Shown piece by piece: positions 16,997-43,381 of a stretch of DNA of 64,000 bases. Source of the DNA: Micromonospora violae (lineage in GTDB: Bacteria > Actinomycetota > Actinomycetes > Mycobacteriales > Micromonosporaceae); NCBI RefSeq assembly GCF_004217135.1, contig NZ_SHKK01000001.1, forward strand, positions 4,526,001 to 4,590,000. Reading direction: 5' to 3'. How positions within the stretch are numbered: the stretch's first letter is position 1; each line of letters opens with the position of its first letter. Both the position numbers and the translations under genes were made by a program. Below the pieces are notes generated by a model that did not search any database, was not told the DNA's origin, and saw only the letters and a list, made by a program, of their open reading frames with translations.

Positions 16997-17066
16997 GCGT
17001 CATATCGCCGAGACGCACCCCGTCCCGCAGCCCGCCCCGCCCTGGCCCCGGCCCGGCCCACCCCGA

Positions 17067-17150
17067 CCCTCAGCCCTCAGCCCTCAGCCGTCGGCCCTCA
17101 GCCCTCAGCCGTCGGCCGTCGGCCGTCAGCCCTCAGCCGTCGGCCGTCGG
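17067..17150. repeat. Tandem heptamer array, 12 units
   Basis: Twelve uninterrupted 7-bp units fit CC[C/G]TC[A/G]G: six CCCTCAG, five CCGTCGG and one CCGTCAG. The array is C-rich on the plus strand and is preceded by a further C-rich stretch from ~17027. It ends three bases before a 77-nt palindromic element. The 16938-17347 gap otherwise holds a terminator, that element, and a comparatively AT-rich promoter-like stretch at ~17245-17347. Confidence 0.95.
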
Positions 17151-17153
17151 CGG

Positions 17154-17230
17154 TGATCGACTCGGTTTGCAGGAAATCGGGCTGTCCGCGTGGTCGGGAC
17201 ACCCCGACTTGCAGAAACCCGAGTCGATCA
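17154..17230. repeat. Palindromic intergenic element, type I (copy 1)
   Basis: A 77-nt element with terminal inverted repeats TGATCGACTCGG (left) and its complement (right), and an inner inverted repeat TGTCC/GGACA. It matches the 48361-48437 element in length, ends and most internal positions, so the two are copies of one family. It lies between the DUF305 gene and the IS630-like gene, directly right of the heptamer array. Confidence 0.9.
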
Positions 17231-17347
17231 AGGCGAGGCGGCCTGCCACTTTGAGGACTAACGCCCCATTTCGTCCCCTGTGACCGTTTTGCACGACACA
17301 GGCGATTACGTTGCTTAGAGAGTTTTCTCCGCACATATCGTGACCAG

Positions 17348-18067
17348 TTGCGATTCGGGCTCGTTGCCCAAGACGTGGGGGTTGCACTCAGAGACGCACG
17401 GCGTTCGGTCACCAGCTGGTGCCGACGCCACACCATCGGTGGTGACGGGGCGGTGGCAGCCGTCCGTCGCGGACAGCGGCAGGGCGAGCCGGGAATGCTC
17501 AGCCGCGAACAGGAACTCGAGTTGATCGACACGCTGCGGGGCGTACACCCCGACGAGTTCGGCCTGGACGAGGAGCTGTGGACGCGGCAGAGCCTCACGA
17601 CGCTCATCCAGCGGCGTTTCGACCTGCCGTTGGACGCTGGAGCGGTCGGGGCGTACCTGCGGGCCTGGGGGTTGGGTCCGCGGGAACCGCGCGAGCGGGC
17701 CTGTGGGCTCTGCGTGAGCGCGGTCGAGCGTTGGGTCCGCAGCGAGTACCCGGCGATCACCCGGGCCGCCCAGGAACACCTCGCGGAGGTCTACTGGATC
17801 GGGCGGGTCCGGCTGCGCGGCACGATGCCGGCCGCCGACGTGATCTCCGCTGTCTCGTCGCGCGGGCGGGTGCGCTTCATGATCACCACGCCGACGGTGG
17901 ACCCGCCGCTCCCCCGCGACTTCGTGCTGCGGCTCAGCGGCGAGGAGCAGCGCACCGTCCACCTGATCGTCGACGGCTCCTGGCCGCGCAACGAGTGGCC
18001 GCGGCGGCTCCCTCGGCGGATCGTCCTGCACCCGCTGCCCAGCTGCGGGCGGGCGCTAGCCGCCTGA
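17348..18067 (+). CDS. IS630-like transposase-derived protein, probably catalytically dead
   Basis: 239 aa. Residues ~1-115 follow the IS630/Tc1 DNA-binding region: a first helix-turn-helix, a linker, then DEELWTRQSLTTLI and a VGAYLRAWGLGPREP segment that copies the second HTH of IS630 transposases. The rest resembles a shortened DDE domain. The first acidic strand reads VYWIGRVRL where an active enzyme has an Asp-Glu pair, the middle Asp survives in HLIVDGSWP, and the protein ends at HPLPS before the LNPIE glutamate. No inverted repeats or target duplication are visible. The TTG start is the first available in an AT-richer upstream region. It reads as a domesticated DNA-binding protein rather than a live IS; a decaying remnant is the alternative, though the frame is intact. 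Confidence 0.6.
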   Translation: MRFGLVAQDVGVALRDARRSVTSWCRRHTIGGDGAVAAVRRGQRQGEPGMLSREQELELIDTLRGVHPDEFGLDEELWTRQSLTTLIQRRFDLPLDAGAVGAYLRAWGLGPREPRERACGLCVSAVERWVRSEYPAITRAAQEHLAEVYWIGRVRLRGTMPAADVISAVSSRGRVRFMITTPTVDPPLPRDFVLRLSGEEQRTVHLIVDGSWPRNEWPRRLPRRIVLHPLPSCGRALAA

Positions 18068-18157
18068 GCACCGGGTGGGCCGGTCCGACACGATCGGCTC
18101 ACCCGATACCGATTCGGCGTACGCAGGGGAGGTTTGCTAGTCTTCTCCAGTCGCTGA

Positions 18158-18232
18158 GCCCCCGTAGCTCAGGGGATAGAGCACCGCCCTCCGGAGGCGG
18201 GGGCGCAGGTTCGAATCCTGCCGGGGGCACCA
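18158..18232 (+). tRNA. tRNA-Arg (anticodon CCG)
   Basis: Full cloverleaf. The 7-bp acceptor stem is GCCCCCG with CGGGGGC. The D arm is GCTC/GAGC. The anticodon stem is CCGCC/GGCGG with loop CTCCGGA, giving anticodon CCG. The T arm is GCAGG/CCTGC around TTCGAAT. Discriminator A is followed by an encoded CCA. It reads CGG codons. A short hairpin terminator follows. Confidence 0.97.
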
Positions 18233-18249
18233 GGCTTGGCCACCACACA

Positions 18250-18283
18250 AAGGCTCCTGACCAGAAAATCGGTCGGGAGCCTT
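18250..18283 (+). terminator. Hairpin terminator of tRNA-Arg
   Basis: A 13-bp stem (18250-18262 with 18271-18283) with one G-U pair and an A-rich loop, 18 bases after the tRNA 3' end. Confidence 0.75.
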
Positions 18284-18346
18284 GATCGTGTGCCGGGTAC
18301 GCAGCCCACCCGCAGCCGGCGAACGCGGTTGATCAAGAATGTCGCC

Positions 18347-18802
18347 ATGCTCTTTCTCCTGCTGCTCCTCGCCGCGCTGGGTGCGGCCGCGCTCGCGACC
18401 GTCCTCGCCGTCCGTGGCGTCCGGACGGCGGCGCGGAGGAGCGGACCGCCGGGTTGGCTGCGGGCGGTGGCGCTCCTCGCCGGTGCCGGCGCCGTCGCCA
18501 TGTACGCCTGGGGCCTGCTCCACCTCGGGTACGCGGTGATGCGGGCGGAGGACGGCGGGGCCGGCTCCGCCCCCGCCGGACCCTGCCGGGAGGGCGGGTC
18601 GCAACTGGCGAGCATGGTCGACGGGTACGGCGTCGACTTCCTGCCGCTCCGCTTCGAGTGCCACCTCAGCGGCGGCGGCACGTACGTCACCTCGTCGGTG
18701 CCCGGGTACGTCAACCAGGCCGCCGCCGCCCTCGGGCTGATCACCGCCGGCTGCGCAGTGCTCACGAGGACGACGGCGGGGCGCTCCCGACCGGTCGGGT
18801 GA
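18347..18802 (+). CDS. Small membrane protein, function unknown
   Basis: 151 aa from the ATG at 18347; longer in-frame starts would run into the tRNA terminator. Three hydrophobic segments (~1-25, ~36-58, ~122-142). The loop between the second and third is ~60 residues with two cysteines (GPCREGG and FECHLSGG), which could form a disulfide if the loop is outside the cell. No family recognised. Convergent with the UvrA-like gene, with only 10 bases between stops. No clear Shine-Dalgarno, so the start is uncertain. Confidence 0.6.
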
Positions 18803-18812
18803 CCGGGGACCG

Positions 18813-21194
<2,382 letters not shown>

Positions 21195-21223
21195 CGTGTC
21201 TCCATCTGTCGGGCGGTCGGGAC

Positions 21224-21634
21224 TCAGCGCGCTTGCTGGATGCGGACCATATTGCCGGCGGGATCGCGGAAGGCACAGTCGCGCACGCCGTACGGATGCT
21301 CGGTCGGTTCCTGGACGACCTCGGCGTCGCTCGCCTCCAGCTTGGCGAAGGTGGCGTCGAGGTCGTCGGTGGCCAGGTTGACGCCGAAGTAGCTGCCCTT
21401 GGCTATCAGCTCAAGGATGGTCTGCCGTTCGTCGTCGGTGATGCCCGGGTTGGCGGTCGGCGGGTGCAGGACGATGGACGTGCTGGGCTGGCCGACCGGC
21501 CCGAGCGTGATCCACCGCATCCCCTCGTAGCCGACGTCGAGGCGAACCTCGAAGCCGAGGAGGTCGCGGTAGAAGACCAGGGAGGCCTCCGGATCGGTGT
21601 GCGGAAGGAAGCTCGAGTGAATGGTGATATTCAT
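21224..21634 (-). CDS. VOC-superfamily (glyoxalase/bleomycin-resistance-like) protein
   Basis: 136 aa, one pair of beta-alpha-beta-beta-beta modules. The first begins MNITIHSSFLPHTDPEAS with FYRDLLGFEV, and the second ends with AFRDPAGNMVRIQQ, the usual closing strand. Such proteins are metal enzymes or drug-binding proteins. The DPAGN ending is common in phenazine/bleomycin-binding-like members, but the ligand cannot be told from sequence. It lies between an AraC regulator (5 bases upstream) and the UvrA-like gene (29 bases downstream), supporting a shared transcript. Confidence 0.88.
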   Translation of the reverse strand: MNITIHSSFLPHTDPEASLVFYRDLLGFEVRLDVGYEGMRWITLGPVGQPSTSIVLHPPTANPGITDDERQTILELIAKGSYFGVNLATDDLDATFAKLEASDAEVVQEPTEHPYGVRDCAFRDPAGNMVRIQQAR

Positions 21635-21639
21635 GCGAG

Positions 21640-22089
21640 TCACGCTAGGTGCGGCTGGGTGACCTGCGCTTCTCGATTCCTGACCGGTCTGGTCACCTGC
21701 TTCGCCACGCACGACGGCATCCCCGCCGTCGCCTGCGCCGCCTGCCGGCGGTAGACGCTGGGCGGCACGCCGACCAGCTCGGTGAAACGGGTGCTGAAGG
21801 TGCCCAACGACGAGCAGCCGACCGCGAAACAGACGTCGGTGACGCTCATGTCGCCACAGCGCAGCAGGGCCATCGCCCGCTCGATCCGCCGGGTCATGAG
21901 GTAGCTGTACGGAGATTCGCCGTAGGCGAGCCGGAACTCGCGGCTGAGGTGCCCGGCCGACATGTGCGCGCCACGGGCGAGCGCCTCGACGTCCAGCGGA
22001 GACGCGTACTCCCGGTCGATCCGGTCGCGGACCCGGCGCAGCCGCGCGAGGTCGCTGAATCGCTGGGTCGCGTCGGATTTGCTGCTCAC
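21640..22089 (-). CDS. AraC-family transcriptional regulator
   Basis: 149 aa, essentially only the AraC DNA-binding domain: two helix-turn-helices, SPLDVEALARGAHMSAGHLS then SVTDVCFAVGCSSLGTFST, ending in GVPPSVYRRQ. No recognisable N-terminal sensor. Small solo AraC/XylS proteins of this type usually activate adjacent stress or drug genes. The GTG at 22089 gives the N-terminus typical of relatives; an in-frame GTG at 22137 would add 16 residues. The VOC gene starts 5 bases after its stop, so it heads the operon it probably controls. Confidence 0.88.
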   Translation of the reverse strand: MSSKSDATQRFSDLARLRRVRDRIDREYASPLDVEALARGAHMSAGHLSREFRLAYGESPYSYLMTRRIERAMALLRCGDMSVTDVCFAVGCSSLGTFSTRFTELVGVPPSVYRRQAAQATAGMPSCVAKQVTRPVRNREAQVTQPHLA

Positions 22090-22158
22090 CTGGACGATCG
22101 TGCCACAGCCCGCCGACACATCGACCGCTCGCCGCACCCGGGCGGGCCGACGAGCCGG

Positions 22159-23688: not shown

Positions 23689-23725
23689 AACCCACCCCGG
23701 GTGTGGTGAACGCCACCGCTTCAGT

Positions 23726-23760
23726 CTGACCGATCGGTCAGGGTCTGACCGATCGGTCAG
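23726..23760. promoter_or_regulatory. Twin perfect TetR operators
   Basis: Two identical, perfect 16-bp palindromes CTGACCGATCGGTCAG at 23726-23741 and 23745-23760, 3 bp apart (centres 19 bp apart), ending 30 bases before the TetR start. This is the classic TetR palindrome type, so autorepression of the TetR-MMPL operon is very likely. The spacing would let two dimers bind on neighbouring, partly offset faces. Confidence 0.85.
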
Positions 23761-23790
23761 GCATGCTGGTTCGCGGGAGGTGGACCGGCC

Positions 23791-24378
23791 ATGGTCAGAG
23801 CGACACCCGACACGCACGGCGAGATCCTCGCCGCGGCGGCGCGGCGGTTCACGGTGACCGGATACCGGGGCACCTCGTTACAGGACATCGCCCGCGAGGT
23901 CGGCTGCTCCAAGGCCACCGTGCTCTACCACTTCGCCAACAAGGAAGCCCTGCTCGCCGAACTGATGGCCCCCGCCATCGACGTGCTCCGCGGCCTCGAC
24001 GACCAGCTCAACGGCCTGACCGGAGCGGCCGCCCAGGAGGTCGCCGCACAGGGCTTCGTCGACCTCGCGGTCCGGTTCCGGCAGGAGATCGCGGTGCTGC
24101 GCGGCGAGTTCCCGGAACTGCTGTCCCAGCCAGCCTTCGCGCACATCCAGCAGATCTCCGACCGGCTGCGGGGCGCGTTGGCCGGGCACTCCGACCGGCC
24201 GGGCGCCCGGATCGCCGCCCTGGTGCTGCTCGCCGGCATCTCCGAGGCGTGCGCCGAGTTCGTCGACATCCCCGACGACGAACTGCGCCCCGCCCTGCTC
24301 ACCCTCGCCCGGCGGGCCGTCGAGCCCGTCGACACTCCCCTGCCCCATCCACCCACGACCGAGGACAAGGACTCCTGA
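23791..24378 (+). CDS. TetR-family repressor of the MMPL exporter
   Basis: 195 aa. N-terminal HTH (TSLQDIAREVGCSKATVLYH, ~30-49) and an all-helical ligand domain. ATG 23791 is preceded by GGGAGGTGG. Two perfect palindromic operators lie directly upstream. Its TGA overlaps the MMPL gene's ATG by one base (TGATG), so repressor and exporter are translationally coupled. This is the standard layout of a drug- or lipid-inducible efflux operon. The ligand is unknown. Confidence 0.95.
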   Translation: MVRATPDTHGEILAAAARRFTVTGYRGTSLQDIAREVGCSKATVLYHFANKEALLAELMAPAIDVLRGLDDQLNGLTGAAAQEVAAQGFVDLAVRFRQEIAVLRGEFPELLSQPAFAHIQQISDRLRGALAGHSDRPGARIAALVLLAGISEACAEFVDIPDDELRPALLTLARRAVEPVDTPLPHPPTTEDKDS

Positions 24379-26594
24379 TGGCCACCCTGCTCTACCGGCT
24401 CGGCCGGGGCGCGTTGCGCCGGCGACGGCTCGTCGTCGCGCTCTGGCTCGTCGTACTCGTCGTCGCCGGCCTGGCCGCGGCGACCCTGCGCGGCCCGACG
24501 GCGAGCAACTTCACCATGCCCGGCACCGAGAGCCAGCGCGCGCTCGACCTGCTGGCCGACCAGTTCCCCGCAGCCAGCGGCGCCACCGGCACCATCACGG
24601 TCAAGGCGCCCGCCGACGGGCAACTGGGCACCCCGCAGGGTCAGGCCGTGGTCCAGGAACTCGTCCAGCAGGCCTCGGCACTGCCCGGCGTGGTCGGCGC
24701 GGTCAACCCGTTCCAGGTCGGCGCGGTCTCGCCCAACGGCCGGTACGCGCTGGTCCAGGTCCAGTTCGCCACCGGCGGGGACGAGGTGACCGACGCGCAG
24801 CGCACCGCGTACGAGCAGGTCGGCGCGGCGGCCAGGGCGCAGGGTTGGCAGGTCGCCCCCGGCGGTGAGGTGCTCGGCGGCGAACCGGAGATCGGTTCCA
24901 CCGAGGCGCTCGGCGTCCTGGTCGCCGCCATCGTTCTGATCATCACGTTCGGGTCACTGGTCGCCGCCGGCATGACCATGCTCAACGCGCTGATCGGCGT
25001 GGGCGCTGGCATGGCCGGGCTGTTCGCGCTGAGCGGCGCCGTCCAGCTCACCAGCACCGCACCGATCCTGGCGCTGATGCTCGGTCTCGCGGTCGGCATC
25101 GACTACTCACTCTTCATCACCTCCCGGCACCGGCAGAACCTGCTCGACGGCCTGTCCCCGGAGGAGGCGGTCGGCCGCGCCGTAGGCACCGCCGGGTCGG
25201 CCGTGGTCTTCGCCGGCGCCACCGTGGTCATCGCCCTGGCCGGGCTCGCCGTGGTGGACATTCCGTTCCTCACCGTGATGGGTCTCGCCGCCGCCGGCAC
25301 GGTCACCGTCGCCGTCCTCGTCGCCATCACCCTCCAGCCGGCGCTGCTCGGCTTCGCCGGTCGCCGGGTGCTCCCCCGCCGGCTGCGCACCGTCCCCACC
25401 GAGGCCGCCGAGGACGACACGGACGTCACCGACCGGCCGACGGTGGAGACGACCACACCCGAGGACCGCAACCGGTTCGGCTTCCGCTGGGCGCGACTGG
25501 TCACCCGGTTCCGCGTACCGGTCATCCTGGTGGGCCTGCTCGGCCTGGGGCTGCTCGCGCTGCCCACGCCGGACATGCGCCTGGCTCTGCCCGGCGCCGC
25601 GACGGCCGCCGTCGGCTCCCCCGCCCGGGTGGCGAACGACCTGACCGTCGAGGGCTTCGGCGCGGGCTTCACCGGCCGCCTCGCGGTGGTGGTCGCCGGC
25701 GACACGCCGCAGGCCACCTCGGCCGCCGTGCCGCAGGTGACCGCCCTGCTCCAGCGCACCGAGAACGTCCTCGCGGTGGCCCCACCCCAGCTCAGCCCGG
25801 ACGGCCGGACCGCGCTGCTGGGCGTGGTGCCGAAGACCGGCCCGACCGACGAGGCCACCGAGACCCTGGTCCACGACATCCGTGCCTCGGTACGCGGGAT
25901 CCCCGACGCGGACGTGCTGCTCACCGGCGTCACCGCAATCGGCATCGACGTCTCCGAGAAGCTGTCCGACGCGCTACCGATCTACCTGCTGCTGGTGGTC
26001 GGGCTCTCGGTGCTGCTGCTGATGCTGGTGTTCCGCTCGCTGCTGGTGCCGATCAAGGCGGCGCTGGGCTTCCTGCTCACCGTCGCCGCCACGTTCGGCA
26101 TCACGGTCGCCGTCTTCCAGCAGGGGCACCTCGCCGACCTCGTCGGCCTGGACACCCCCGGCCCGCTGATCAGCTTCCTGCCGATCCTGCTGATCGGCAT
26201 CCTGTTCGGGCTCGCCATGGACTACGAGGTGTTCCTGGTCTCCCGGATGCGGGAGGACTTCGTGCACGGTGAGACCGCCCGACAGGCCACCATCAGCGGC
26301 ATGGGGCACGGCGCACGGGTGGTCACGGCCGCCGCGCTGATCATGATCTCGGTCTTCGGGGGCTTCGTCTTCCTGGAGGATCCGGTGATCAAGTCGATGG
26401 GCTTCGCGCTCGCCATTGGCGTCGCCATCGACGCGTTCGTGGTCCGGATGACCATCGTCCCGGCGGTGATGTCGCTCCTCGGCGACCGCGCCTGGTGGCT
26501 GCCCCGCTGGCTCGACCGCGCCCTGCCAAACGTGGACATCGAAGGCGAAGGCCTCCGCACCCACCTCGAAGACCGCACCCCGACGCACGTCTAG
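24378..26594 (+). CDS. MMPL-family membrane transporter
   Basis: 738 aa, 12 predicted helices in two repeats with two extracytoplasmic domains (~35-185 and ~400-530). The proton-relay Asp-Tyr pairs occur in both halves: LAVGIDYSLF near 239 and GLAMDYEVF near 615. A charged Pro/Thr-rich linker (~335-370) joins the halves. MMPL proteins export lipids, siderophores or drugs in actinomycetes. The ATG overlaps the TetR stop, so it is under the repressor's control. The C-terminus ends in an arginine/proline-rich cytoplasmic tail. Confidence 0.93.
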   Translation: MATLLYRLGRGALRRRRLVVALWLVVLVVAGLAAATLRGPTASNFTMPGTESQRALDLLADQFPAASGATGTITVKAPADGQLGTPQGQAVVQELVQQASALPGVVGAVNPFQVGAVSPNGRYALVQVQFATGGDEVTDAQRTAYEQVGAAARAQGWQVAPGGEVLGGEPEIGSTEALGVLVAAIVLIITFGSLVAAGMTMLNALIGVGAGMAGLFALSGAVQLTSTAPILALMLGLAVGIDYSLFITSRHRQNLLDGLSPEEAVGRAVGTAGSAVVFAGATVVIALAGLAVVDIPFLTVMGLAAAGTVTVAVLVAITLQPALLGFAGRRVLPRRLRTVPTEAAEDDTDVTDRPTVETTTPEDRNRFGFRWARLVTRFRVPVILVGLLGLGLLALPTPDMRLALPGAATAAVGSPARVANDLTVEGFGAGFTGRLAVVVAGDTPQATSAAVPQVTALLQRTENVLAVAPPQLSPDGRTALLGVVPKTGPTDEATETLVHDIRASVRGIPDADVLLTGVTAIGIDVSEKLSDALPIYLLLVVGLSVLLLMLVFRSLLVPIKAALGFLLTVAATFGITVAVFQQGHLADLVGLDTPGPLISFLPILLIGILFGLAMDYEVFLVSRMREDFVHGETARQATISGMGHGARVVTAAALIMISVFGGFVFLEDPVIKSMGFALAIGVAIDAFVVRMTIVPAVMSLLGDRAWWLPRWLDRALPNVDIEGEGLRTHLEDRTPTHV

Positions 26595-26611
26595 CCCCCA
26601 CCCCCACCCCG

Positions 26612-26686
26612 GTCGATCATGGAGTTGTGGTGCCCGTCATGCCCCGATCAGAGGCATTTGTCCGGCACCACAACTCCATGATCGAC
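26612..26686. repeat. Palindromic intergenic element, type II (copy 1)
   Basis: A perfect 23-bp inverted repeat (26612-26634 with 26664-26686) beginning GTCGATCATGGAGTTGTGG around a 29-nt centre that has its own small ATGCC/GGCAT stem. A C-rich run of five-C blocks (26595-26610) touches its left edge. It lies between two convergent stops (MMPL and erythromycin-esterase homologue) and shares its arm with the element at 43307. Confidence 0.92.
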
Positions 26687-26704
26687 GCGATCGGGGCGCC
26701 CGGT

Positions 26705-27961
26705 TCACACCCCCGCCGGGTAGGTCTCCATCTCACCGGGGGCCGCCGGCACCGGTAGCGGGTGCAGAGCTGTGGTGTCGTCGCACCAGATGAAGGCGTC
26801 GTAGCGGTCGCCGAGGCGGGTGGGCACGTAATTGCCCCAGGACTCGAACGACGGGTCGTAGACGACCCCGATCGCCCGGTGGTCCGCGGTGTCGGTGACC
26901 CAGCCCGGCTGGTCGTCGCCGCCGAAGATCAGCACCGCCCGATCCGGCATCAGCTCGTGCAGCCGCCGCTCGATCGAGCCCTCCCGGGCCGGCGGCACCA
27001 CCATCGCCTCGGGCGGCGAACCCCACCGGGGCGCGGCGATCACCGTGCCCCGGTAATTGCCGAAGCCGATCAGGGCCACCGCGTCCTCGCCGTGCCGTTC
27101 TCGGGCCAACTGACCGATGTTGATCATCCCGTCGGCGGACATGTCCGTGGCCCGGGCGTCCCCCACGTGCGTGTTGTGCGCCCAGACGATGCCCCGGGCG
27201 TCCGGGCCGTACCGGTCCAGCAGCCGGTCCAGGGTGTCCTGCATGTGGGTGTCGCGGATGTTCCACGAGTCCGGCCCGCCGGCCACCATCGCCCGGTAGT
27301 AGCGCTCCGCGCCCGCCACCACCTCGGCGTTCTGCCAGGCCGAGAAACGGTCCGGGCCGTCGGAGAGGGCGTGCTCGCGGGTCCGGGCGAGCAACCGGAC
27401 GACCTCCTCCTCGCAGCGCGCGGAGACGAACCGGCTGGCCGCGCCGTACTCCTCGACCCTCTTGCCGTACGGCTCGAAACACCGGTACGCGTCCTGCGCC
27501 GCCTCCAGCGACTTCGGGTCCTCCTCCCCCAGGTAGTCGAAGATCGCCTGCATCGACTCCCAGAGGCTGTACACGTCGAGCCCGTGGAACCCGGCCCGCT
27601 GCCCCTCCGGCCGCTCCACGTTCCAGGCCCGCAGCCAGCTGGTGAACCGTGCCACCTCGGCGTTCGCCCACATCCAGGTCGGCCACCGCTCGAACTGATC
27701 GAGCGCGAGCTGCGGTTCGAGCGCGCCGCCGGGCGCTGCCGTCACCGAACGGTGCACCCGATCGCAGTCGGGCCAGTCACCCTCGACGGCGACGAACGAG
27801 AAGCCGCACTCCGCGATCAACCGGCGGGTGAGCTGCTCCCGCAACCGGTAGTAGTCGTAACTGCCGTGGGTGGACTCACCGATCATCACCACCCGGGCGT
27901 CGCGAACGCGCTCCAGCAACGGGTCGAAGTCGCTCGGCGCGCCGAGCCGCTGAACCAGCAT
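26705..27961 (-). CDS. Erythromycin esterase family protein
   Basis: 418 aa. The family core is intact: MIGESTHGSYDYYRLREQL, with a Glu-Ser-Thr-His active-site motif near residue 32, then VAVEGDWPDCDRVHR and, later, VWAHNTHVGDARATDM. True macrolide esterases (EreA/B) hydrolyse the lactone ring, but most actinobacterial homologues have unproven substrates. ATG 27961 begins nine residues before the core; an upstream GTG at 28018 is possible. DUF2795 diverges. No adjacent phosphoribosyltransferase, a frequent partner, is present. Confidence 0.85.
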   Translation of the reverse strand: MLVQRLGAPSDFDPLLERVRDARVVMIGESTHGSYDYYRLREQLTRRLIAECGFSFVAVEGDWPDCDRVHRSVTAAPGGALEPQLALDQFERWPTWMWANAEVARFTSWLRAWNVERPEGQRAGFHGLDVYSLWESMQAIFDYLGEEDPKSLEAAQDAYRCFEPYGKRVEEYGAASRFVSARCEEEVVRLLARTREHALSDGPDRFSAWQNAEVVAGAERYYRAMVAGGPDSWNIRDTHMQDTLDRLLDRYGPDARGIVWAHNTHVGDARATDMSADGMINIGQLARERHGEDAVALIGFGNYRGTVIAAPRWGSPPEAMVVPPAREGSIERRLHELMPDRAVLIFGGDDQPGWVTDTADHRAIGVVYDPSFESWGNYVPTRLGDRYDAFIWCDDTTALHPLPVPAAPGEMETYPAGV

Positions 27962-28090: not shown

Positions 28091-28282
28091 ATGACCGTCA
28101 CCGGGGTGCAGTTGCAGGAGTACCTGGCCGGGCTCGACTACCCGGTCTCACGGGAGGATCTGGTCCGCTGGGGGCAGGAGAACGGGGCCAGCACAGAGAT
28201 GTTGCAGATGTTGCAGGCGCTACCCCCGGAGCAGTTCAACTCCCCCGACGAGCTGAGCGCCGCCCTACCCACCCCCACCTAA
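28091..28282 (+). CDS. DUF2795 small protein
   Basis: 63 aa. VTGVQLQEYLAGLDYPVSRE and VRWGQENGA are typical of DUF2795, a small helical family often fused or adjacent to stress proteins. It has one complete copy of the domain and ends in a Pro/Thr tail. The ATG at 28091 has a weak Shine-Dalgarno. Divergent from the erythromycin-esterase homologue. Function unknown. Confidence 0.8.
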   Translation: MTVTGVQLQEYLAGLDYPVSREDLVRWGQENGASTEMLQMLQALPPEQFNSPDELSAALPTPT

Positions 28283-28352
28283 CCAACCACCCCACCCCAC
28301 CCAGCCCAACCCAACCCACCCCACCCCACCCCACCCAGCCCAGCCCAGCCCT
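28283..28352. repeat. C-rich, almost G-free pentamer tract
   Basis: About 70 bases starting right at the DUF2795 stop, made of CCACC, CCCAA and CCCAG-like pentamers with almost no G on the plus strand. It runs straight into the palindromic element at 28353. The composition is that of a strong Rho-utilisation site in the DUF2795 transcript (inference). Confidence 0.9.
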
Positions 28353-28413
28353 GGTGATCATGAGGTTATTGTCCTCTGCCACGGCGTGTCGCGCCGCTAA
28401 CTTCATGATCACC
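28353..28413. repeat. Palindromic intergenic element, diverged type II
   Basis: A 16-bp inverted repeat (28353-28368 with 28398-28413), GGTGATCATGAGGTTA, with one mismatch, around a 29-nt centre. The arm shares GATCATG with the type II elements. It lies between convergent stops (DUF2795 and the Gfo/Idh gene). Confidence 0.85.
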
Positions 28414-28433
28414 GGGCGCGGTGGGGGTGAGGG

Positions 28434-29339
28434 TCAGGCCGGGATGGTGACGGTGCGGGACTCGGCTCGGGCGGTTTCGGCGGCGGCGAGGATGGCGACG
28501 ACCTCACGGCCGAAGCGGACGTCGCAGCGGTGGTCCCGGGTGCCGGCCTGCACCTGCTCGACGAGCTGGTCGATGGCGACGCCGAACGCGGTGGCGGGGT
28601 CGTTCTCGCCGGACGGGACGTTCTCGATGCCGTTCTCGCCGTAGAAGACGAACTCCCGGGCCATCGACTCGGTCGGGGCGTCCAGGGAGAGCGAGGCGCT
28701 GCTGGTGGCACCGCCCTCGTGGGTGAGCAGCAGGTGCACCATCCCGCTCGGCCCGTCCATCGCCGCCACCTGCGTCACCCGGCCCAGCACGGGCAGGAGG
28801 ATCGAGAGGGCGTGCGGGGCGATGTCCCAGAGCGCTCCGTGCTCCCGACGCCACAGCGAGCCGCCGTACGGGCTGCCCTCCTGGAAGATCGAGGCGAACG
28901 CGGTGGTCCGGCCGTGCTGCCAGCCCCCGGCGGCGGCGGTGGCGGCGAGGAACGCGGTCACGTTCGGCTGGAACCGCTGGGTGAAGAAGACGACCGAGGC
29001 GACCCCGGACTCCTCGGCGGCGGCCACCACACGGTCGGCGTCGGCCACACTGAGCGCCAGCGGCTTGTCCAGCAGCAGGTGCCGGCCGGCGCGGGCCGCC
29101 CGGACCGCGATGTCGGCCTGGATGTCCGGCGGCAGGGCGACGGCGATCGCCTCGCACTGCTCGATCAGCGCGTCGACGTCGGCGTAGGCGGGCACCCCGT
29201 ACCGCTCGGCCAGCGCGGAGGCCCGCTCCGGGTTACGACCCCACACCCCCACCAGCTCCGCGTCGGGATGTGCGTGCAGCGCCTTCCCGTGCGTCTCGAT
29301 CGCCCAGTGACCGGTGCCGAACAAACCGAACCGCAGCAC
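28434..29339 (-). CDS. Gfo/Idh/MocA-family NAD(P)-dependent oxidoreductase
   Basis: 301 aa. N-terminal Rossmann fold (GLFGTGHWA at ~4-12) and the family's lysine in LLLDKPLALS (~95-104, an EKP variant with Asp). The C-terminal beta-sheet domain includes WDIAPHALS with the catalytic-region histidine. These enzymes oxidise or reduce sugars, inositols or related alcohols. The GTG at 29339 is chosen because GGAGG ends 5 bases before it. Monocistronic by context. Substrate not predictable. Confidence 0.9.
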   Translation of the reverse strand: MLRFGLFGTGHWAIETHGKALHAHPDAELVGVWGRNPERASALAERYGVPAYADVDALIEQCEAIAVALPPDIQADIAVRAARAGRHLLLDKPLALSVADADRVVAAAEESGVASVVFFTQRFQPNVTAFLAATAAAGGWQHGRTTAFASIFQEGSPYGGSLWRREHGALWDIAPHALSILLPVLGRVTQVAAMDGPSGMVHLLLTHEGGATSSASLSLDAPTESMAREFVFYGENGIENVPSGENDPATAFGVAIDQLVEQVQAGTRDHRCDVRFGREVVAILAAAETARAESRTVTIPA

Positions 29340-35154: not shown

Positions 35155-35170
35155 TCGTCCGGCCCTGACC

Positions 35171-37614: not shown

Positions 37615-38286
37615 ATGGCGTACGCCCAGGCTGGCGACCCGTCCGAGTTCACCGGGTTGACCGGTTGGGTGGCCTCGGTGATCGAGGTGATGGGTCCGGT
37701 CGGAGTGGCGCTGCTGGTGGCGTTGGAGAGCATCGTTCCTCCGATCCCCAGCGAGATCGTGCTGGCGCTCGCCGGTTTCCTGGCGCACGAGGGCGAGTTC
37801 AACGTCCTCCTCGTGGTGCTCGCCGCGACGGTCGGTTCGCTGGTCGGCGCGTTGGTGCTCTACTGGCTCGGCGCGGCGCTCGGCGAGGACCGGCTCAAGC
37901 GCTGGTTGGACCACATCCCCTTGGTGGACAGCGACGACCTGGAGAAGGCCGACAGGTGGTTCGAGCGGCACGGTCGGTGGGCGGTGCTGATCGGCCGGGT
38001 GGTGCCGGTGGTCCGCAGCCTGGTCTCCGTACCGGCCGGGGCCAACCGGATGCCGCTGGGCGAGTTCATCCTGCTCACCACCATCGGCAGCGGCGTGTGG
38101 AACGGTCTCATCGTGGGTGCCGGTTACGCGCTCGGGAGCCGTTGGCAGGACGTCGCGCGCTACAGCGACTGGTTCAACTACGCGATCGGCGCGATCTTCG
38201 TCGTCATGGTGGTCAGTTGGGTGATCCGTAAGGTCCGCAAGCGTCGGGACCGCGACGACCGGCGGTCGGTGACCGCCGGCCGCTGA
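37615..38286 (+). CDS. DedA-family membrane protein (SNARE-associated / VTT domain)
   Basis: 223 aa. Has the family's re-entrant segment VPPIPSEIVLALAGFLA (~40-58), the acidic residue in ESIVPPIPSE, and the arginine motif GRVVPVVRSLVSVPAG (~125-140), both needed for function in E. coli DedA proteins. Five or so helices and a basic C-terminus. DedA proteins are lipid scramblases/flippases that recycle undecaprenyl phosphate or phospholipids. GGAAGGA upstream of the ATG. It follows DUF1349 after 57 bases and may share its transcript. Confidence 0.92.
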   Translation: MAYAQAGDPSEFTGLTGWVASVIEVMGPVGVALLVALESIVPPIPSEIVLALAGFLAHEGEFNVLLVVLAATVGSLVGALVLYWLGAALGEDRLKRWLDHIPLVDSDDLEKADRWFERHGRWAVLIGRVVPVVRSLVSVPAGANRMPLGEFILLTTIGSGVWNGLIVGAGYALGSRWQDVARYSDWFNYAIGAIFVVMVVSWVIRKVRKRRDRDDRRSVTAGR

Positions 38287-38299
38287 TCCGCGGTGGCGC

Positions 38300-39064
38300 C
38301 TACCGCCGGCGCCCAGGACGGCTGTCCAGCGAGCCCGACGGAACCGCCGACGGGCGGCGAAGCACCGCCTGCTCGATGGCGGACCACCCGCTCGTGGTCA
38401 CCAGGTAGATCACCGCGGCGAGCGGCAGCACCAGCGCCACCAGCACGGTGGTGAAGGGCAGCAGGGGTAGCAGCCGCCCGAGCGTGGCCGCTCCCGGCCC
38501 CTCGGTGGGCGTACCGGCCACCGTGCCCACCGCCGCCGACGCACGGCGGGCCCGCCGCGACGACCACCAGGCGATCAGCAACACCACCAGCAGTACGCCG
38601 AAGAGCGGTCCGGCCGCACCCGCCAGCCCGTCGCCGAGATGGTGACCCAGCGGTACGCCGGCCAACCGCTCGTCCAGCAGCCCGGTGCCGCCCTCGCGTG
38701 TGCTGAACAACCGGTACAGCACCAGCAGGAACGGCGCTTGGAGGAGCAACGGCAGGCAACCGGCGATCGGGTTCGCGCCGGCCTCCCGGTACAGCGTGAA
38801 CACCTCGCGCTGAAGCGTCGCCGGGTCGTCGGCGTACCGCCGCTGAAGGTCGCGCACCTGTGGGGCGAGCGCCGCGCGACGCCGCTCCCCGCGGACCTGC
38901 GCGACGGTCAGCGGCGAGATCAGCAGACGGACGGCGATGGTGAACAGCACGATGGCGGCGGCGGTGGCCGCCCCACCGGCCAGTGGTTCGAGCAGTTCGG
39001 TGAGCCAGGACAGTGCACTGCCGGCAGCGCCGACAGCGTCGTGCAGTGGTGCGAAGGCAAGCAT
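38300..39064 (-). CDS. YidC/Oxa1-family insertase paralogue
   Basis: 254 aa, a short YidC-type insertase with five helices. The first region TIAVRLLISPLTVAQVRGERR (~42-62) carries the conserved groove arginine, followed by LAPQVRDLQRRYADDP and GCLPLLLQAPFLLVLYRLF, both YidC signatures. It is not the housekeeping yidC, which normally lies in the rnpA-yidC-jag cluster at oriC. ATG 39064 is preceded by GAGGGG. The small DUF6412-like gene ends 101 bases upstream on the same strand, a likely partner. Convergent with dedA. Confidence 0.88.
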   Translation of the reverse strand: MLAFAPLHDAVGAAGSALSWLTELLEPLAGGAATAAAIVLFTIAVRLLISPLTVAQVRGERRRAALAPQVRDLQRRYADDPATLQREVFTLYREAGANPIAGCLPLLLQAPFLLVLYRLFSTREGGTGLLDERLAGVPLGHHLGDGLAGAAGPLFGVLLVVLLIAWWSSRRARRASAAVGTVAGTPTEGPGAATLGRLLPLLPFTTVLVALVLPLAAVIYLVTTSGWSAIEQAVLRRPSAVPSGSLDSRPGRRR

Positions 39065-39165
39065 GGGGAACCCCTCGGTCCGACTCCGGTGGGGCCCTCC
39101 CCCGGGCGGCATCCGCTCAGCAGGGGGGCCGGTGACGACGGGATCGGCCGCGCGGCGGCGAGGCG

Positions 39166-39459
39166 CTACGCGACCGAGGGGTGCCCCGGAGCCCGGGGAC
39201 GAGGCCGACCGGCGGCGTCCGGGTCGATCTGGCGGGGCATTCGGCGACTTCGGGAGCGGGCCCGCAGGCCGGCCCACCGTGGCCCGGCACCAAACGTGCC
39301 CGCCCAGCCGTGCACCCGGGCCGCGAGCACCACCGCGAGCAACACCAGCGCGGTCAACGCGGCACCCGCGAGCAGATCGGCCGGGCGACCGGCGAGCAGG
39401 GTGAGCTGGGCGAACGCGGACATCCACGCGACCCCGAGATAACCCAGCAGCACCGGCAC
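39166..39459 (-). CDS. Small membrane protein, DUF6412-like
   Basis: 97 aa. Two hydrophobic segments (~1-22 and ~30-50), then a basic arginine-rich stretch (LRARSRSRRMPRQ) and a C-terminal tail DPDAAGRPRPRAPGHPSVA. This tail and layout match the small actinobacterial family found beside YidC paralogues (DUF6412, from memory). The GTG at 39459 has TATGCT 6 bases before it and no Shine-Dalgarno, so the mRNA may be leaderless. The basic tail could contact RNA or ribosomes (inference). Confidence 0.6.
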   Translation of the reverse strand: MPVLLGYLGVAWMSAFAQLTLLAGRPADLLAGAALTALVLLAVVLAARVHGWAGTFGAGPRWAGLRARSRSRRMPRQIDPDAAGRPRPRAPGHPSVA

Positions 39460-39551
39460 GGGCCCAGCATAGGACCCGCTGTCACCCCACCCGGCCGAAT
39501 CCGGGTCCGCCCGCGCCCGACCGGCCGCCGCCACGTTTCCCGACATCGCCA

Positions 39552-39567
39552 CGTTGGGTAACCAACG
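39552..39567. promoter_or_regulatory. Palindrome before the YbdK-type ligase gene
   Basis: CGTTGG and CCAACG arms around GTAA, 45 bases before the ligase start, in the divergent gap. Candidate operator; its regulator is unknown. Confidence 0.4.
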
Positions 39568-39612
39568 GTGGACCGACGCGGACGGCCCGCGAACGGTAGG
39601 AACGGACGGGTG

Positions 39613-40755
39613 ATGTCGATGACCGGTCAGGTGGCGGAGGCGCCCAGCGACATGGCTGCGGCGACCGGGTTGCTCACCGTGGGTGTCGAGGAGGAGTTCC
39701 TGCTCGTCGACCCGCACACCGGGGCCGCGGTTCCGGCCGTGGACCTGGTCATGGAGCAGGTGCCGGCCGAGCTCCGCGGGCAGGTGGAGCGGGAGTTCCA
39801 GACCAGTCAGATCGAGATCGGCAGCCCGCCAGGCCTGGAGCTCTCGTCGATCCGGCACTCCCTCGGCGTCCTGCGTCGGGCGCTCTCCGACGCCGCCGAG
39901 CGGGCCGGCGTACGCCTGCTCGCCATCGGCACCGGCCCGGTCGACGGCCCGGTGCCACCGGTGGTGGACAAGCCCCGCTTCGACCGGATGATCGAACGGT
40001 TCCGGCTGCTCGTTCCCGGCCCCGGCAACAACGGTATGCACGTACACGTGGGGGTGCCTGACCCGGACACCGGCGTGCAGGTGCTCAACCACGTACGGCC
40101 GTGGCTGCCGATGCTGCACGCGGTCACCACCAACTCGCCCTTCGCCGGCGGTGCGGACACCGGCTACGCCAGTTGGCGCTCGGTGGAGTGGGAGCGCTGG
40201 CCGTCGGTGGCCCCGACGCCGTTTTTGGAGTCGCACGAGCACTACCAGCGGCTGATCCGCCAGTTGATCTCCAGTGGGGTGATGCTCGACGAGGGGATGC
40301 TCTATTGGTACGCCCGCCTGTCGGCGAAGTACCCGACGGTGGAGCTGCGGATCGGCGACGTCTGCCCGTCGGTCGACGACGCGGTGCTGGTCGCCGCGCT
40401 GGTCCGGGCGCTGGTGGCCACCGCCATGGCGGACGTCGAGGCCGACCGGCCGGCGTTGCGCACCGACCACCACCTGCTGGTCGGCGCGCACTGGCGGGCC
40501 GCCCATGACGGCCTCGAAGGCGAGGCCGTGGACGTCACCACCGGTGAGCTGCGCCCGGCCTGGGAGTTGTTGGACCGGTTCGTGGAACGGATGCGGCCGG
40601 CGTTGGAGCAGCACGGCGACTGGGCCGAGGTGACCGACCTGCTGGGTGGTCTGCGTCGGCACGGCAGCGGCGCGGCACGGCAGCGGGCGGTGTTCGAGCG
40701 CACCGGCCGACTCACCGACGTGGTGCGGGACGTCGCGCGACAGACCCGCGGCTGA
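39613..40755 (+). CDS. Carboxylate-amine ligase, YbdK/GCS2 family
   Basis: 380 aa. The glutamate-cysteine ligase family 2 core is clear: TVGVEEEFLLVDPHTG near the start, then GPGNNGMHVHVGVPD and YPTVELRIGDVCPS. These are ATP-dependent gamma-glutamyl ligases with glutamate-cysteine activity that is weak in E. coli YbdK. Actinomycetes use mycothiol, so the product here may be another gamma-glutamyl amide or a precursor for ergothioneine-like thiols. ATG 39613; GTG 39610 also possible. A CoA-disulfide-reductase-like gene begins 23 bases downstream. Confidence 0.88.
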   Translation: MSMTGQVAEAPSDMAAATGLLTVGVEEEFLLVDPHTGAAVPAVDLVMEQVPAELRGQVEREFQTSQIEIGSPPGLELSSIRHSLGVLRRALSDAAERAGVRLLAIGTGPVDGPVPPVVDKPRFDRMIERFRLLVPGPGNNGMHVHVGVPDPDTGVQVLNHVRPWLPMLHAVTTNSPFAGGADTGYASWRSVEWERWPSVAPTPFLESHEHYQRLIRQLISSGVMLDEGMLYWYARLSAKYPTVELRIGDVCPSVDDAVLVAALVRALVATAMADVEADRPALRTDHHLLVGAHWRAAHDGLEGEAVDVTTGELRPAWELLDRFVERMRPALEQHGDWAEVTDLLGGLRRHGSGAARQRAVFERTGRLTDVVRDVARQTRG

Positions 40756-40778
40756 TCAGTGCGTGACAGGATGAACCC

Positions 40779-42158
40779 GTGGCGCAACGGCTGATCGTCA
40801 TCGGCGGGGACGCCGCCGGCATGTCGGCGGCGTCCCAGGCCCGACGCCGCCGCGACCGTGGCGACCTGGAGATCGTGGTCTTCGAGCGGGGCCACTTCAC
40901 CTCCTACGCGGCGTGCGGCATCCCCTACTGGATCAGCGGCCTGGTGCCCGGTCCCGAGACGTTGATCGCCCGCACCCCGGAGACGTTCCGCACGGAGTAC
41001 GCCATGGACGTACGTCTGCGTCACGAGGTCACGACAATCGACCTGGAACGCCGCGAGGTCGTCGCCCAGGACCTGAACGGCGGCGGCGAGGTCCGCGAAC
41101 GCTTCGACGACCTGGTGTACGCCACCGGCGCGGTGCCGGTGAAGCCGCCGTGGGCCGTCACCGACGTGGACGGCGTGTTCGGCGTGCAGACCCTCGACGA
41201 CGGTGCCGCGCTCCGCGACTGGCTGGACGCCGAGCCACAGCCGCGCCGGGCCGTGGTGGTCGGCGGTGGGTACATCGGCGTCGAGATGGCCGAGGCCCTG
41301 ATCCAACGCGGCCTCTCGGTGACCCTGGTGGAGGCGGGCGAGCAGCCCATGGCGACCGTCGACCCCGACATGGCCGAGTTGGTCACCGAAGCCATGCGCA
41401 GCCTCGGCATCACCATCCGCACCAGCCTGCCCGTCAGTGGCCTGGAACAGCGCGACGGCCGGGTCTCCGCCGTGGTCACCGCCGAGGGGCCGATCCCGAC
41501 CGACGTCGTGGTCCTGGGCCTCGGCGTACGCCCCAACACCGCGCTCGCCAAGGCGGCCGGGCTGCCCCTCGGGCCGACCGGGGCGATCCGGGTCGACCGC
41601 CGGATGCGGGTGCCCGGGCTCCCCGGAGTCTGGGCGGCCGGCGACTGCGTGGAGTCCCTGCACCGGGTCAGCGGGTTGCCGGTGCACGTGCCGCTCGGCA
41701 CGCACGCCAACAAACATGGGCGGGTCGCCGGGACCAACATCGGCGGCGGGTACGCCACCTTCACGGGCGTGATCGGCACGGCCGTGACCAAGGTCTGCGA
41801 CCTGGAGGTGGGCCGGACCGGCCTGCGCGAGCGGGAGGCCGCCGCCGCCGGGTTCGAGTTCGTCTCGGTGATCGCCGAGTCGACCAACCGGGCCGGCTAC
41901 TACCCCGGCTCCCGGCCGATGACGGTCAAGCTGATCGCCGAGCGTCCCAGCGGCCGGTTGCTCGGCGCACAGATCGTCGGTTGGTCCGAGGCGGCCAAAC
42001 GGATCGACACACTGGCCGTCGCGTTGTGGAACGGCATGACGGTGGACGATATGACACAGCTGGACCTGGGTTACGCTCCGCCATACGCGCCGGTGTGGGA
42101 TCCGGTGCTGATCGCCGCCCGAAAAGCGGTCGACGCGCTCGCCGCGCTCAACCATTGA
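40779..42158 (+). CDS. CoA-disulfide reductase / NADH oxidase-like flavoprotein
   Basis: 459 aa FAD/NAD(P)H pyridine nucleotide-disulfide oxidoreductase. FAD motif IGGDAAGMSAA (8-18), NAD motif VVVGGGYIGVEMAEAL (~162-177), and one redox-active cysteine in SYAACGIPYW (Cys46), the mark of CoA-disulfide reductases and NADH oxidases. The C-terminal dimerisation domain contains RPMTVKLIAERPSGRLLGAQ and YAPPYAPVWDP, and no rhodanese domain follows. GTG 40779 with AGGATG upstream. The 23-base gap to the ligase and 27 bases to the LacI gene suggest a thiol-related operon. Confidence 0.92.
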   Translation: MAQRLIVIGGDAAGMSAASQARRRRDRGDLEIVVFERGHFTSYAACGIPYWISGLVPGPETLIARTPETFRTEYAMDVRLRHEVTTIDLERREVVAQDLNGGGEVRERFDDLVYATGAVPVKPPWAVTDVDGVFGVQTLDDGAALRDWLDAEPQPRRAVVVGGGYIGVEMAEALIQRGLSVTLVEAGEQPMATVDPDMAELVTEAMRSLGITIRTSLPVSGLEQRDGRVSAVVTAEGPIPTDVVVLGLGVRPNTALAKAAGLPLGPTGAIRVDRRMRVPGLPGVWAAGDCVESLHRVSGLPVHVPLGTHANKHGRVAGTNIGGGYATFTGVIGTAVTKVCDLEVGRTGLREREAAAAGFEFVSVIAESTNRAGYYPGSRPMTVKLIAERPSGRLLGAQIVGWSEAAKRIDTLAVALWNGMTVDDMTQLDLGYAPPYAPVWDPVLIAARKAVDALAALNH

Positions 42159-42185
42159 CCCGCGCCCGCCGTGGAGGACCACCCC

Positions 42186-43199
42186 GTGACCCAGACCCCG
42201 ACCCGGCCGACCGCGCGTCGGCGTCCCACGATGGTCGACGTGGCCCGACGGGCCGACGTCAGTTTGAAGACGGTCTCCCGGGTCGTCAACGACGAGCCGG
42301 TGGGGCAGGAGTTGGTCGGCCGGGTGCTGGCCGCAATCGCCGAGCTGGGCTTCCGGCGCAACGACATCGCCCGGAACCTGCGCTCCCGGCAGCTCAACGC
42401 CACCGTCGGGCTGCTGATCGAGGAGATCGCCAACCCGTTCTACGCGACCATCGCCAGCGTCGCCGCCGAGATCGCCGCCGCCCACGGCACCATGCTGATC
42501 ACCGCGTCGTCCGAGGAGGACCCGGAGCGGGAACGCGCCCTGCTCCAGGATTTCACCCAGCGCCGGGTCGACGGCCTGCTGGTGGTGCCGGCCGGCCTCG
42601 ACCACTCGTTCCTCCGTCGTGAGGTCGAGCTGGGCATGCCGGTGGTGTTCCTGGACCGGCCGCCGCAGGGGCTGCAAGCCGACGCCGTGCTGCTGGACAA
42701 CCGGGGCGGCAGCCATGCCGCGGTGAGCGCGCTGCTCGACCAGGGGCACCGACGGGTGGGGCTGCTGCTCGGCGCGCCGAGCGTGCCCACCATGCGGGAG
42801 CGGCTGGCCGGAGCGCGGGCGGCACTGGACGCCGCCGGGGTCGAGCCGGACGGGTCGCTGGTCCGTGAGCGGCTCATCGCCCCCGAGGAGGCCGGGCGGG
42901 CGGTCGCCGCGCTGCTCGACCTTCCGGAGCCGCCCACCGCGTTCTTCTGCGCCAACAACCGGCTCACCGTCGGCGCCCTCCAGGAGCTGCACCGGCGGGG
43001 CAGCGACGCCGCGCTGGTCGGCTTCGACGACTTCGAACTGTCCCACCTGATGCCCCGACCGCTGACCGTCGTCGCGTACGACACCCGGGAGTTGGCGAGG
43101 GTGGCCACCGAGCGACTGTTCCAACGCGTCGCCGGCGACGACACCCCGCCGTCCACAACGATCCTCCCCACCAGGCTCGTCGAACGCGGCCTGACCTGA
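42186..43199 (+). CDS. LacI-family transcriptional regulator
   Basis: 337 aa. N-terminal HTH (TMVDVARRADVSLKTVSRVV, ~15-34) with hinge helix IARNLRSRQ, then a periplasmic-binding-protein-like sugar domain (GLLIEEIANPFYATI to AALVGFDDFE). GTG 42186 lies ~8 bases after GGAGG; the earlier in-frame GTG contains that site and is rejected. It follows the flavoprotein after 27 bases. A good candidate target is the convergent isomerase-fructokinase operon, whose upstream region contains a LacI-type palindrome at 45789-45802 (inference). Confidence 0.92.
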   Translation: MTQTPTRPTARRRPTMVDVARRADVSLKTVSRVVNDEPVGQELVGRVLAAIAELGFRRNDIARNLRSRQLNATVGLLIEEIANPFYATIASVAAEIAAAHGTMLITASSEEDPERERALLQDFTQRRVDGLLVVPAGLDHSFLRREVELGMPVVFLDRPPQGLQADAVLLDNRGGSHAAVSALLDQGHRRVGLLLGAPSVPTMRERLAGARAALDAAGVEPDGSLVRERLIAPEEAGRAVAALLDLPEPPTAFFCANNRLTVGALQELHRRGSDAALVGFDDFELSHLMPRPLTVVAYDTRELARVATERLFQRVAGDDTPPSTTILPTRLVERGLT

Positions 43200-43200
43200 C

Positions 43201-43306
43201 GCGCCCGGCACGCCCGCCCGCGCCCGCGCGAGCCCCACGCACGCCCGCGCACGCCCGCGCACGCCCGCGCCCGCACGCCCGCGCACGCCCGCCCGCGCCC
43301 GCACGC
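43201..43306. repeat. C/G-rich simple-repeat tract with decamer units
   Basis: Starts at the LacI stop. It contains three perfect tandem ACGCCCGCGC decamers (43241-43270) and further near-copies to ~43294, and it runs directly into a palindromic element at 43307. Confidence 0.9.
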
Positions 43307-43381
43307 GTCGATCATGGACTTGTGGTGCCTCGCGTATGCCGCAAAGAGGGGTTAACCGCCCACCACAAGTCCATGATCGAC
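43307..43381. repeat. Palindromic intergenic element, type II (copy 2)
   Basis: A perfect 21-bp inverted repeat (43307-43327 with 43361-43381), GTCGATCATGGACTTGTGG and its complement, around a 33-nt centre. The arm differs from the 26612 element at one base within the first 19. Between convergent stops (LacI and fructokinase-like gene). Confidence 0.92.

Follow-up and report, generated by a model that had tools for sequence, protein, structure and literature searches.

Three families of palindromes in the genome of Micromonospora violae, here called F1, F2 and F3, are gene-end elements which lie between a C-rich flank on their left and a G-rich flank on their right. F1 and F3 are present in a stretch of 64,000 nucleotides (contig NZ_SHKK01000001.1, positions 4,526,001–4,590,000; hereafter the window), for which an initial annotation had proposed that C-rich repeat tracts load the termination factor Rho and that the adjoining palindromes protect the 3′ ends. 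With a little less than even confidence we suggest that F1–F3 are bidirectional 3′-end hairpins with weakly structured approaches. Observed are their location at 3′ ends, the mirrored flanks, the weak predicted structure of the RNA, a bias that extends to stop codons and silent positions, and the substitution of F1 by other inverted repeats at an orthologous gap between two convergent genes (gap A, positions 26595–26704).

Flank composition and placement of the palindromes

The counts for the own genome cover 2.4 of the 7.14 Mb of the chromosome and are based on gene calls of a purpose-written codon-usage script, not on a curated annotation. This sample holds 73 paired copies of F1, F2 and F3, of which 71 lie outside called genes and were kept; the two copies overlapping a called gene, 13 unpaired half-arms and flanks shorter than 15 nt were excluded. 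C exceeds G in 65 of the 67 usable left flanks (sign test, 3e-17) and G exceeds C in 63 of the 67 usable right flanks (sign test, 1e-14), whatever the orientation of the neighboring genes, in convergent and tandem settings alike. The C enrichment on one fixed side which had been predicted for the genomic copies is thus borne out for the left side; the G-rich right side had been overlooked.

The two-sided pattern is absent from the other palindrome families of the sample and from most other long inverted repeats. The F4 family (18 copies) has mean C/G fractions of 0.43/0.31 on the left and 0.35/0.38 on the right, a weak left excess only, and the families P1 and P2 have no flank bias in the 2.4 Mb. 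At 43 other long intergenic inverted repeats C exceeds G in 19 of 32 usable left flanks and G exceeds C in 10 of 29 usable right flanks, which argues against a generic hairpin effect. A generic effect of gene ends was rejected as well: the left 60 bp of convergent gaps have C/G fractions of 0.39/0.35 without an element and 0.47/0.25 with one. Further palindrome families without such flanks are found in the own genome outside the window (GATGAGCGTGATGCCTGTGAGTCATC, AGATCTTGGACACTTTCCGTTAGC, GGGTTTCCGGGGCAGCCCGACCCGC).

A scan blind to palindromes, which required a net excess of 18 or more C within 50 bases and then 18 net G, yielded 28 switches from C to G and none from G to C in the 2.4 Mb. 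Of these sites 25 are on F1–F3, two on look-alikes of F3 and one on a palindrome of the GATC type whose arms measure 10 bp. The association thins at laxer thresholds, F1–F3 being at 33 of 51 C-to-G sites at a threshold of 16 (6 opposite switches) and at 36 of 131 at a threshold of 14 (68 opposite switches). In addition, 30 of 70 intergenic regions with F1–F3 contain short tandem repeats, as compared to 57 of 772 element-free regions of 110 bp or more (P = 5e-14).

A specific pairing of the left and right flank of a copy was rejected, as own pairs do not significantly outperform cross pairs (P = 0.12, 0.19 and 0.23 for gaps of 3, 10 and 15). The strength of the left and right skew is uncorrelated (correlation coefficient rho 0.08, P = 0.53); the distances to the convergent genes on either side are correlated (rho 0.61). 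A sharp anchor of the bias was not found either: it tracks neither the stop codon nor the palindrome alone and fades out at 150–200 nt from the palindrome.

Between convergent genes lie 38 of the 71 copies, a setting which comprises 13% of the sequence in gaps of at least 60 bp. Only two copies lie between divergent genes, which comprise 35% of the intergenic bases; both show the left and the right bias. Of the 31 tandem copies 30 lie closer to the stop upstream (median distance 32 bp) than to the next start (108 bp). From this placement we conclude that F1–F3 are gene-end elements, and in having a hairpin between convergent genes and strand-symmetric flanks they resemble a bidirectional terminator. 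F1 is also a high-copy intergenic palindrome, as are the repetitive extragenic palindromic (REP) sequences and bacterial interspersed mosaic elements (BIME): with up to two mismatches the whole genome contains 103 F1-like arms in forward and 102 in reverse orientation (control 2 and 1).

Coding sequence, approaching RNA and relatives

The bias extends into the neighboring genes. Among genes ending beside F1–F3, TAA is the stop codon in 41 of 103; elsewhere it is used in 77 of 1806, and in 26 of 681 at convergent ends that lack an element. TGA is reduced to 53 of 103 (0.515) from 1544 of 1806 (0.855; P = 4e-15). Neighbors of the F4 and P families have TGA in 24 of 30 cases, near the genome value. 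At fourfold degenerate sites of the last 10 codons beside F1–F3 the fractions are C 0.69, G 0.16, A 0.13 and T 0.02, elsewhere C 0.48, G 0.38, A 0.07 and T 0.07. The coding bias reaches about 90 nt, its gradient fading over about 30 codons; counted from the palindrome it fades at 150–200 nt. Genes leading away from an element show the mirror-image bias in their first codons, weaker than at gene ends.

The predicted folding energy of the 80 nt entering the palindrome is −0.23 kcal/mol per nt, as compared to −0.40 at 200 sampled 3′ ends and −0.36 for the leaving strand. Of the 142 entering stretches of 80 nt 77 have a C/G ratio above 2, as do 3 of 200 controls, so that the excess of C over G typical of Rho-dependent terminators is present. 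The U tract of an intrinsic terminator is absent from the 40 nt past the stem, where G ranges from 0.44 to 0.63 and T from 0.04 to 0.17 in 5-nt steps. A G tract behind a stem is unfavorable for intrinsic release, and the G-rich tract past the stem of F1–F3 speaks against this type of termination. Motifs for G-quadruplexes are found in 71 of 142 leaving strands and in none of the 142 entering strands.

Within the genus F1 with strict arms is present in 19 and F2 in 43 of 81 genomes, the own genome being included in both counts; a looser F-group pattern is found in 32 of the 150 genomes sampled from the family and in 10 of 44 genera. Of the 89 loci of relatives 40 were hand-chosen from lists, some for orthology. 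For the flank, placement, stop codon and fourfold figures of the relatives the own-genome locus L168 was removed, and 32 of 36 F1 and 46 of 48 F2 copies were kept. C exceeds G on the left in 20 of 24 F1 and 36 of 37 F2 copies, and the right flank has more G than C in 24 of 30 and 41 of 41, respectively. Tandem copies are nearer to the upstream stop in 7 of 8 (F1) and 22 of 24 (F2) cases. TAA ends 30 of 115 genes beside elements as compared to 6 of 122 (P = 7e-6), the fraction of G at fourfold sites is 0.18 less than 50 nt from the palindrome as compared to 0.48 at 200–250 nt, and in genes leading away C is 0.28 and G 0.57 at 50–100 nt. In the set of relatives that still included L168, four divergent copies show the left bias in 4 of 4 and the right bias in 3 of 4, with gene calls that are uncertain there. 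From other genera 20 copies were fetched, 18 of them outside called genes; G exceeds C in 15 of 15 usable right flanks and C exceeds G in 7 of 10 usable left flanks.

Two gaps of the window were followed through 30 genomes including the own one. Gap A contains F1 in 11 genomes, another inverted repeat in 16 (with a stem score of at least 12 in 13 of these, counted without a chance control) and neither in 3. In L241, L247–L250 and L252 a compact hairpin like GGAGGTGTGGTGCCCG/CGGGCACCACACCTCC replaces F1; judging from its arms, which resemble the inner F1 arm, it may be related to F1. Gap B (28283–28433) contains F3 or F2 in 7 of 30 genomes and is unreadable in 4; L242 has F2 arms and a similar loop where others carry F3. 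As the right-hand genes are mostly non-orthologous in genomes without an element, only the left gene was used here. The last 60 nt of this gene, which codes for a DUF2795 protein, have C/G fractions of 0.48/0.17 with an element (7 genomes, mostly close relatives) as compared to 0.39/0.32 without (18 genomes, P = 0.001). At gap A the composition of the gene ends with and without an element does not differ significantly (P = 0.19 and 0.10).

The arms of the palindromes persist between orthologues, whereas the units and lengths of the tracts turn over; despite differing sequence and length the orthologous tracts beside F1 have more C than G. In F3 arms matched changes are commoner than expected (82 versus 43). 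One relative (L252) has kept the switch from C to G without an F palindrome. In L153, L156, L160, L208, L211 and L215 another inverted repeat (near GCGATCTTGCAGTTTCGGTC ... GACAGAAAGTGCAAGATCGCG) adjoins F1.

Palindromes of the window

The window contains the four C-rich tandem tracts of the initial annotation, and each runs up to a palindrome. The adjoining palindromes are not all of one kind, three belonging to F1 and F3 and the fourth to F4. A first F1 palindrome (26612–26686, perfect 23-bp arms, 29-nt loop) lies between the convergent genes of an MMPL protein (24378–26594, plus strand) and an erythromycin-esterase-like protein (26705–27961, minus strand), with a short C-rich tract on the plus strand leading from the stop codon to F1 (26595–26611). 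A second one (43307–43381, 21-bp arms, 33-nt loop) lies between the convergent genes of a LacI-type regulator (42171–43199, plus strand) and a PfkB kinase (43427–44380, minus strand); to its left is a C-rich tract of decamers (43200–43306, plus strand), which in the relative L205 is shorter and made of other repeat units, and directly to its right an additional F1 half-arm (43393–43409, minus strand). On visual inspection the sequence of the F1 loop is non-random, often reading GGKGACAAA... one way and the complement the other way, so that F1 seems to be oriented by its loop despite its symmetric arms. The F3-type palindrome (28355–28412) is placed between the convergent genes of the DUF2795 protein (28091–28282, plus strand) and a GFO/IDH/MocA oxidoreductase (28434–29339, minus strand). 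On its left is a C/A-rich tract on the plus strand (28283–28354) with CACCC-type pentamers (about 28283–28350), and its G-rich right flank (28413–28433), C-rich on the minus strand, mirrors this tract.

The fourth tract, an array of C-rich heptamers (17067–17152, plus strand), adjoins an F4 palindrome (17153–17231) and is unmirrored on the right; F4 is a separate family without two-sided flanks family-wide. The arms of F1, F3 and F4 are near TCGATCATGGASTTGTGGTG, TGATCATGARGTT and TTGATCGACTCGG, respectively. The left 80 bp have C/G fractions of 0.49/0.30 at 17153, 0.49/0.23 at 26612, where they are mostly coding, 0.65/0.07 at 28355 and 0.60/0.30 at 43307; the right 80 bp have 0.40/0.38 at 26612, 0.21/0.56 at 28355 and 0.31/0.36 at 43307. 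Thus, the two-sided pattern is clear in the window at 28355 only and is otherwise a property of the families over many copies.

That a C-rich repeat tract precedes every long palindromic element is not the case. The second F4 palindrome of the window (48360–48438) has no simple C tract, its left 80 bp being also C-rich (0.49/0.28), and a GC-rich hairpin at 35170 has C/G fractions of 0.38/0.33 in its left 80 bp. A 51-bp direct repeat (48275–48372) includes the outer arm of the adjoining F4 palindrome. In the window Rfam has no curated family at the palindromes, only a tRNA (18158–18229) reaching the gathering threshold, and we therefore do not assign them to a known RNA family.

The window does encode a Rho factor with an expanded region, as had been stated (725–2719, minus strand, 664 aa). 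About 256 residues separate its N-terminal domain (Rho_N, residues 1–34) from the RNA-binding domain (291–369), which is followed by the ATPase domain (400–604). Between the first two domains the gene contains 13 copies of an 18-bp tandem repeat in frame (window 2070–2310). Two further repeats of the window are a run of 33 C (49731–49763) followed by tandem arrays of 20 and 24 bp (49787–49915) in the gap downstream of 48599–49495, and an operator-like 19-bp palindromic unit (GTCTGACCGATCGGTCAGG) in two tandem copies (23724–23761) directly before the gene at 23791.

Readings of the pattern and known systems

If F1–F3 are bidirectional 3′-end hairpins, transcription from either side would traverse about 150 nt of C/A-rich, G/T-poor RNA which should be weakly structured because of this composition, and the transcript would next meet the stem–loop, which would end or protect it. 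We infer that the pressure acts on the RNA and that termination is the function; less firmly, Rho might load on the C-rich approach while the stem guards the 3′ end, a role which the composition makes plausible.

Several results weigh against these bidirectional hairpins. Other hairpins at 3′ ends (F4, P1, P2 and the 43 inverted repeats) lack the two-sided flanks. The entering RNA folds weakly, yet the bias runs about 90 nt into translated codons, which should be shielded from Rho, and the preference of Rho sites for C and U is not seen at the fourfold sites, where C is high, A is 0.13 and T only 0.02. For the 31 tandem copies, where only one side is transcribed toward the hairpin, the skew over 50 nt amounts to 0.31 on the upstream side and to 0.27 on the downstream side, which is not significantly weaker (P = 0.56), and genes leading away contain 98 C and 148 G at 50–150 nt as compared to 686 C and 636 G at 150–400 nt (P = 7e-4, L168 included). 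As both the downstream side in tandem settings and the first codons of genes leading away are biased, sense transcription alone cannot explain the bias. In the F1 arms, again with L168 included, changes are mostly uncompensated (8 matched versus 64 one-armed). Finally, silent divergence between relatives is higher near the element, 0.261 versus 0.193, in 14 of 19 genes (P = 0.016), in a test which pools few genes from related and hence not independent genomes; genes without elements have 0.198 versus 0.232 (n = 16, P = 0.16). For the last 15 codons the pooled value is 0.38 versus 0.193, some genes being counted many times.

The symmetry in tandem settings, the reach into coding sequence, the loss of T together with G and the silent divergence fit a process at the DNA level at least as well. 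A strand-asymmetric process at F1–F3, such as recurrent cleavage, stalling or outward repair synthesis, might alter about 150 bp on each side, G and T being gained on the outward-leading strand and A and C on the inward one while tandem repeats expand, and the bias would be a scar and not a signal. Keto/amino polarity of this kind is known at replication origins. Such a process would account for a mirror symmetry independent of gene direction, for a bias at silent sites on the entering and leaving sides which fades at 150–200 nt and is keto/amino in nature instead of being confined to C, for the enriched tandem repeats whose units and lengths turn over between orthologues, and for the raised silent divergence. 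However, F4, P2 and GC-rich hairpins with comparable or longer stems are without such a domain, so that a family-specific enzyme, none being identified, would be needed; moreover, deamination is not a direct source of the dominant change from G to C, and the effect on divergence is modest (19 genes). We consider this process quite possible, if on balance somewhat doubtful, and place it close to the RNA-level reading. Rather unlikely in our view is that F1–F3 are recurrent starts of a DNA synthesis which proceeds outward in both directions over about 150 nt, for instance following a nick or break specific to the family. Such synthesis would leave a keto/amino skew like that of an origin, tandem repeats that change rapidly, and changed stop and silent codons in the genes alongside.

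The one-sided tract with a protective hairpin as initially proposed has in its favor the C-rich, G-poor stretch before the gene-end stems of F1–F3, seen throughout the 2.4 Mb, and the Rho gene in the window. Four results do not follow from it, namely the G-rich mirror side, which is present in tandem settings too, the reach into translated codons and stop codons, the depletion of T, and the lack of a two-sided pattern at F4, P1, P2 and the 43 inverted repeats; in this form the proposal is very improbable. Hardly more probable are mobile palindromes that prefer to insert at an existing switch from C-rich to G-rich DNA. The high copy number and patchy spread would suit them, and the switch of L252, which we read as the loss of a palindrome, is compatible with a pre-existing target. 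In the 2.4 Mb, however, no strong switch is unoccupied, all 28 carrying a palindrome, and the end of the DUF2795 gene at gap B is richer in C and poorer in G with an element (P = 0.001; 7 mostly close relatives). Furthermore, no REP transposase of the Y1 type was detected: PF01797 has no hit in the genome at E 0.001, the same search being positive in 5 of 14 control genomes, which argues against mobilisation by a REP-associated tyrosine transposase (RAYT). As improbable as the one-sided tract is a control by G-quadruplexes or R-loops, in which structures on the G-rich leaving strand would stall polymerases. Quadruplex motifs are confined to the leaving strands, but they may follow from composition alone and are missing from half of the flanks, and neither the gradient at silent sites nor the preference of A over T would be explained.

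The pattern thus marks either a gene-end module of symmetric build or a place where one-sided change of the DNA is locally frequent, and either way it is sharp and recurs across a genus. If the pressure is on the DNA, the elements would be marked sites of local strand-biased mutation. If it is on the RNA, they would be GC-world counterparts of bidirectional terminators with A and U tracts and would provide a rule for recognizing 3′ ends from sequence in actinomycetes of high GC content, in which strong U tracts are rare; gene-end signals would then shape stop codons and silent sites. Judged by the titles and the beginnings of abstracts of the open-licence papers listed, no description of a palindrome between a C tract and a G tract was found, nor in the open-licence literature any report joining Micromonospora with Rho-dependent or Micromonosporaceae with repetitive extragenic palindromic.

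Several known systems resemble F1–F3 in part. The REP and BIME sequences, for which functions in termination and in stabilizing mRNA have been proposed, are likewise intergenic palindromes of high copy number (PMC3733652). The F elements differ from them in their length of 75 or about 55–60 bp, their variable loops and the lack of a Y1 transposase hit. We know of no REP family with a mirror-image flank composition over about 150 bp.

Rho-dependent terminators with a protecting 3′ stem–loop share the excess of C over G in the approach and the stem–loop at the 3′ end (PMC6407284, PMC12350095, PMC8269248). RhoTermPredict searches for a 78-nt site with a C/G ratio above 1 and C residues every 11–13 nt, followed by a pause site or hairpin (PMC6407284), and the Rut (Rho utilization) sites mapped in B. 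subtilis have U/C-rich anchors, a bias of U over G and C>G bubbles and are mostly antisense (PMC12350095). F1–F3 differ in that the composition of both strands is affected, in their reach into coding sequence, in the depletion of T and in the conserved repeat arms. The U-less (I-shaped) terminators of GC-rich actinobacteria have stable stems without a U tract, as do 353 of 535 structured 3′ ends in S. clavuligerus (PMC8269248), and inverted repeats resembling them replace F1 at gap A. Unlike F1–F3, they have compact loops, and their gaps are without long C and G flanks in the copies seen. Bidirectional intrinsic terminators also place a hairpin with strand-symmetric flanks between convergent genes, in the order A tract, hairpin, U tract. 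The upstream A tracts characteristic of them are virtually absent in Streptomyces (PMC12207403); F1–F3 carry a C tract and a G tract in place of the A and U tracts.

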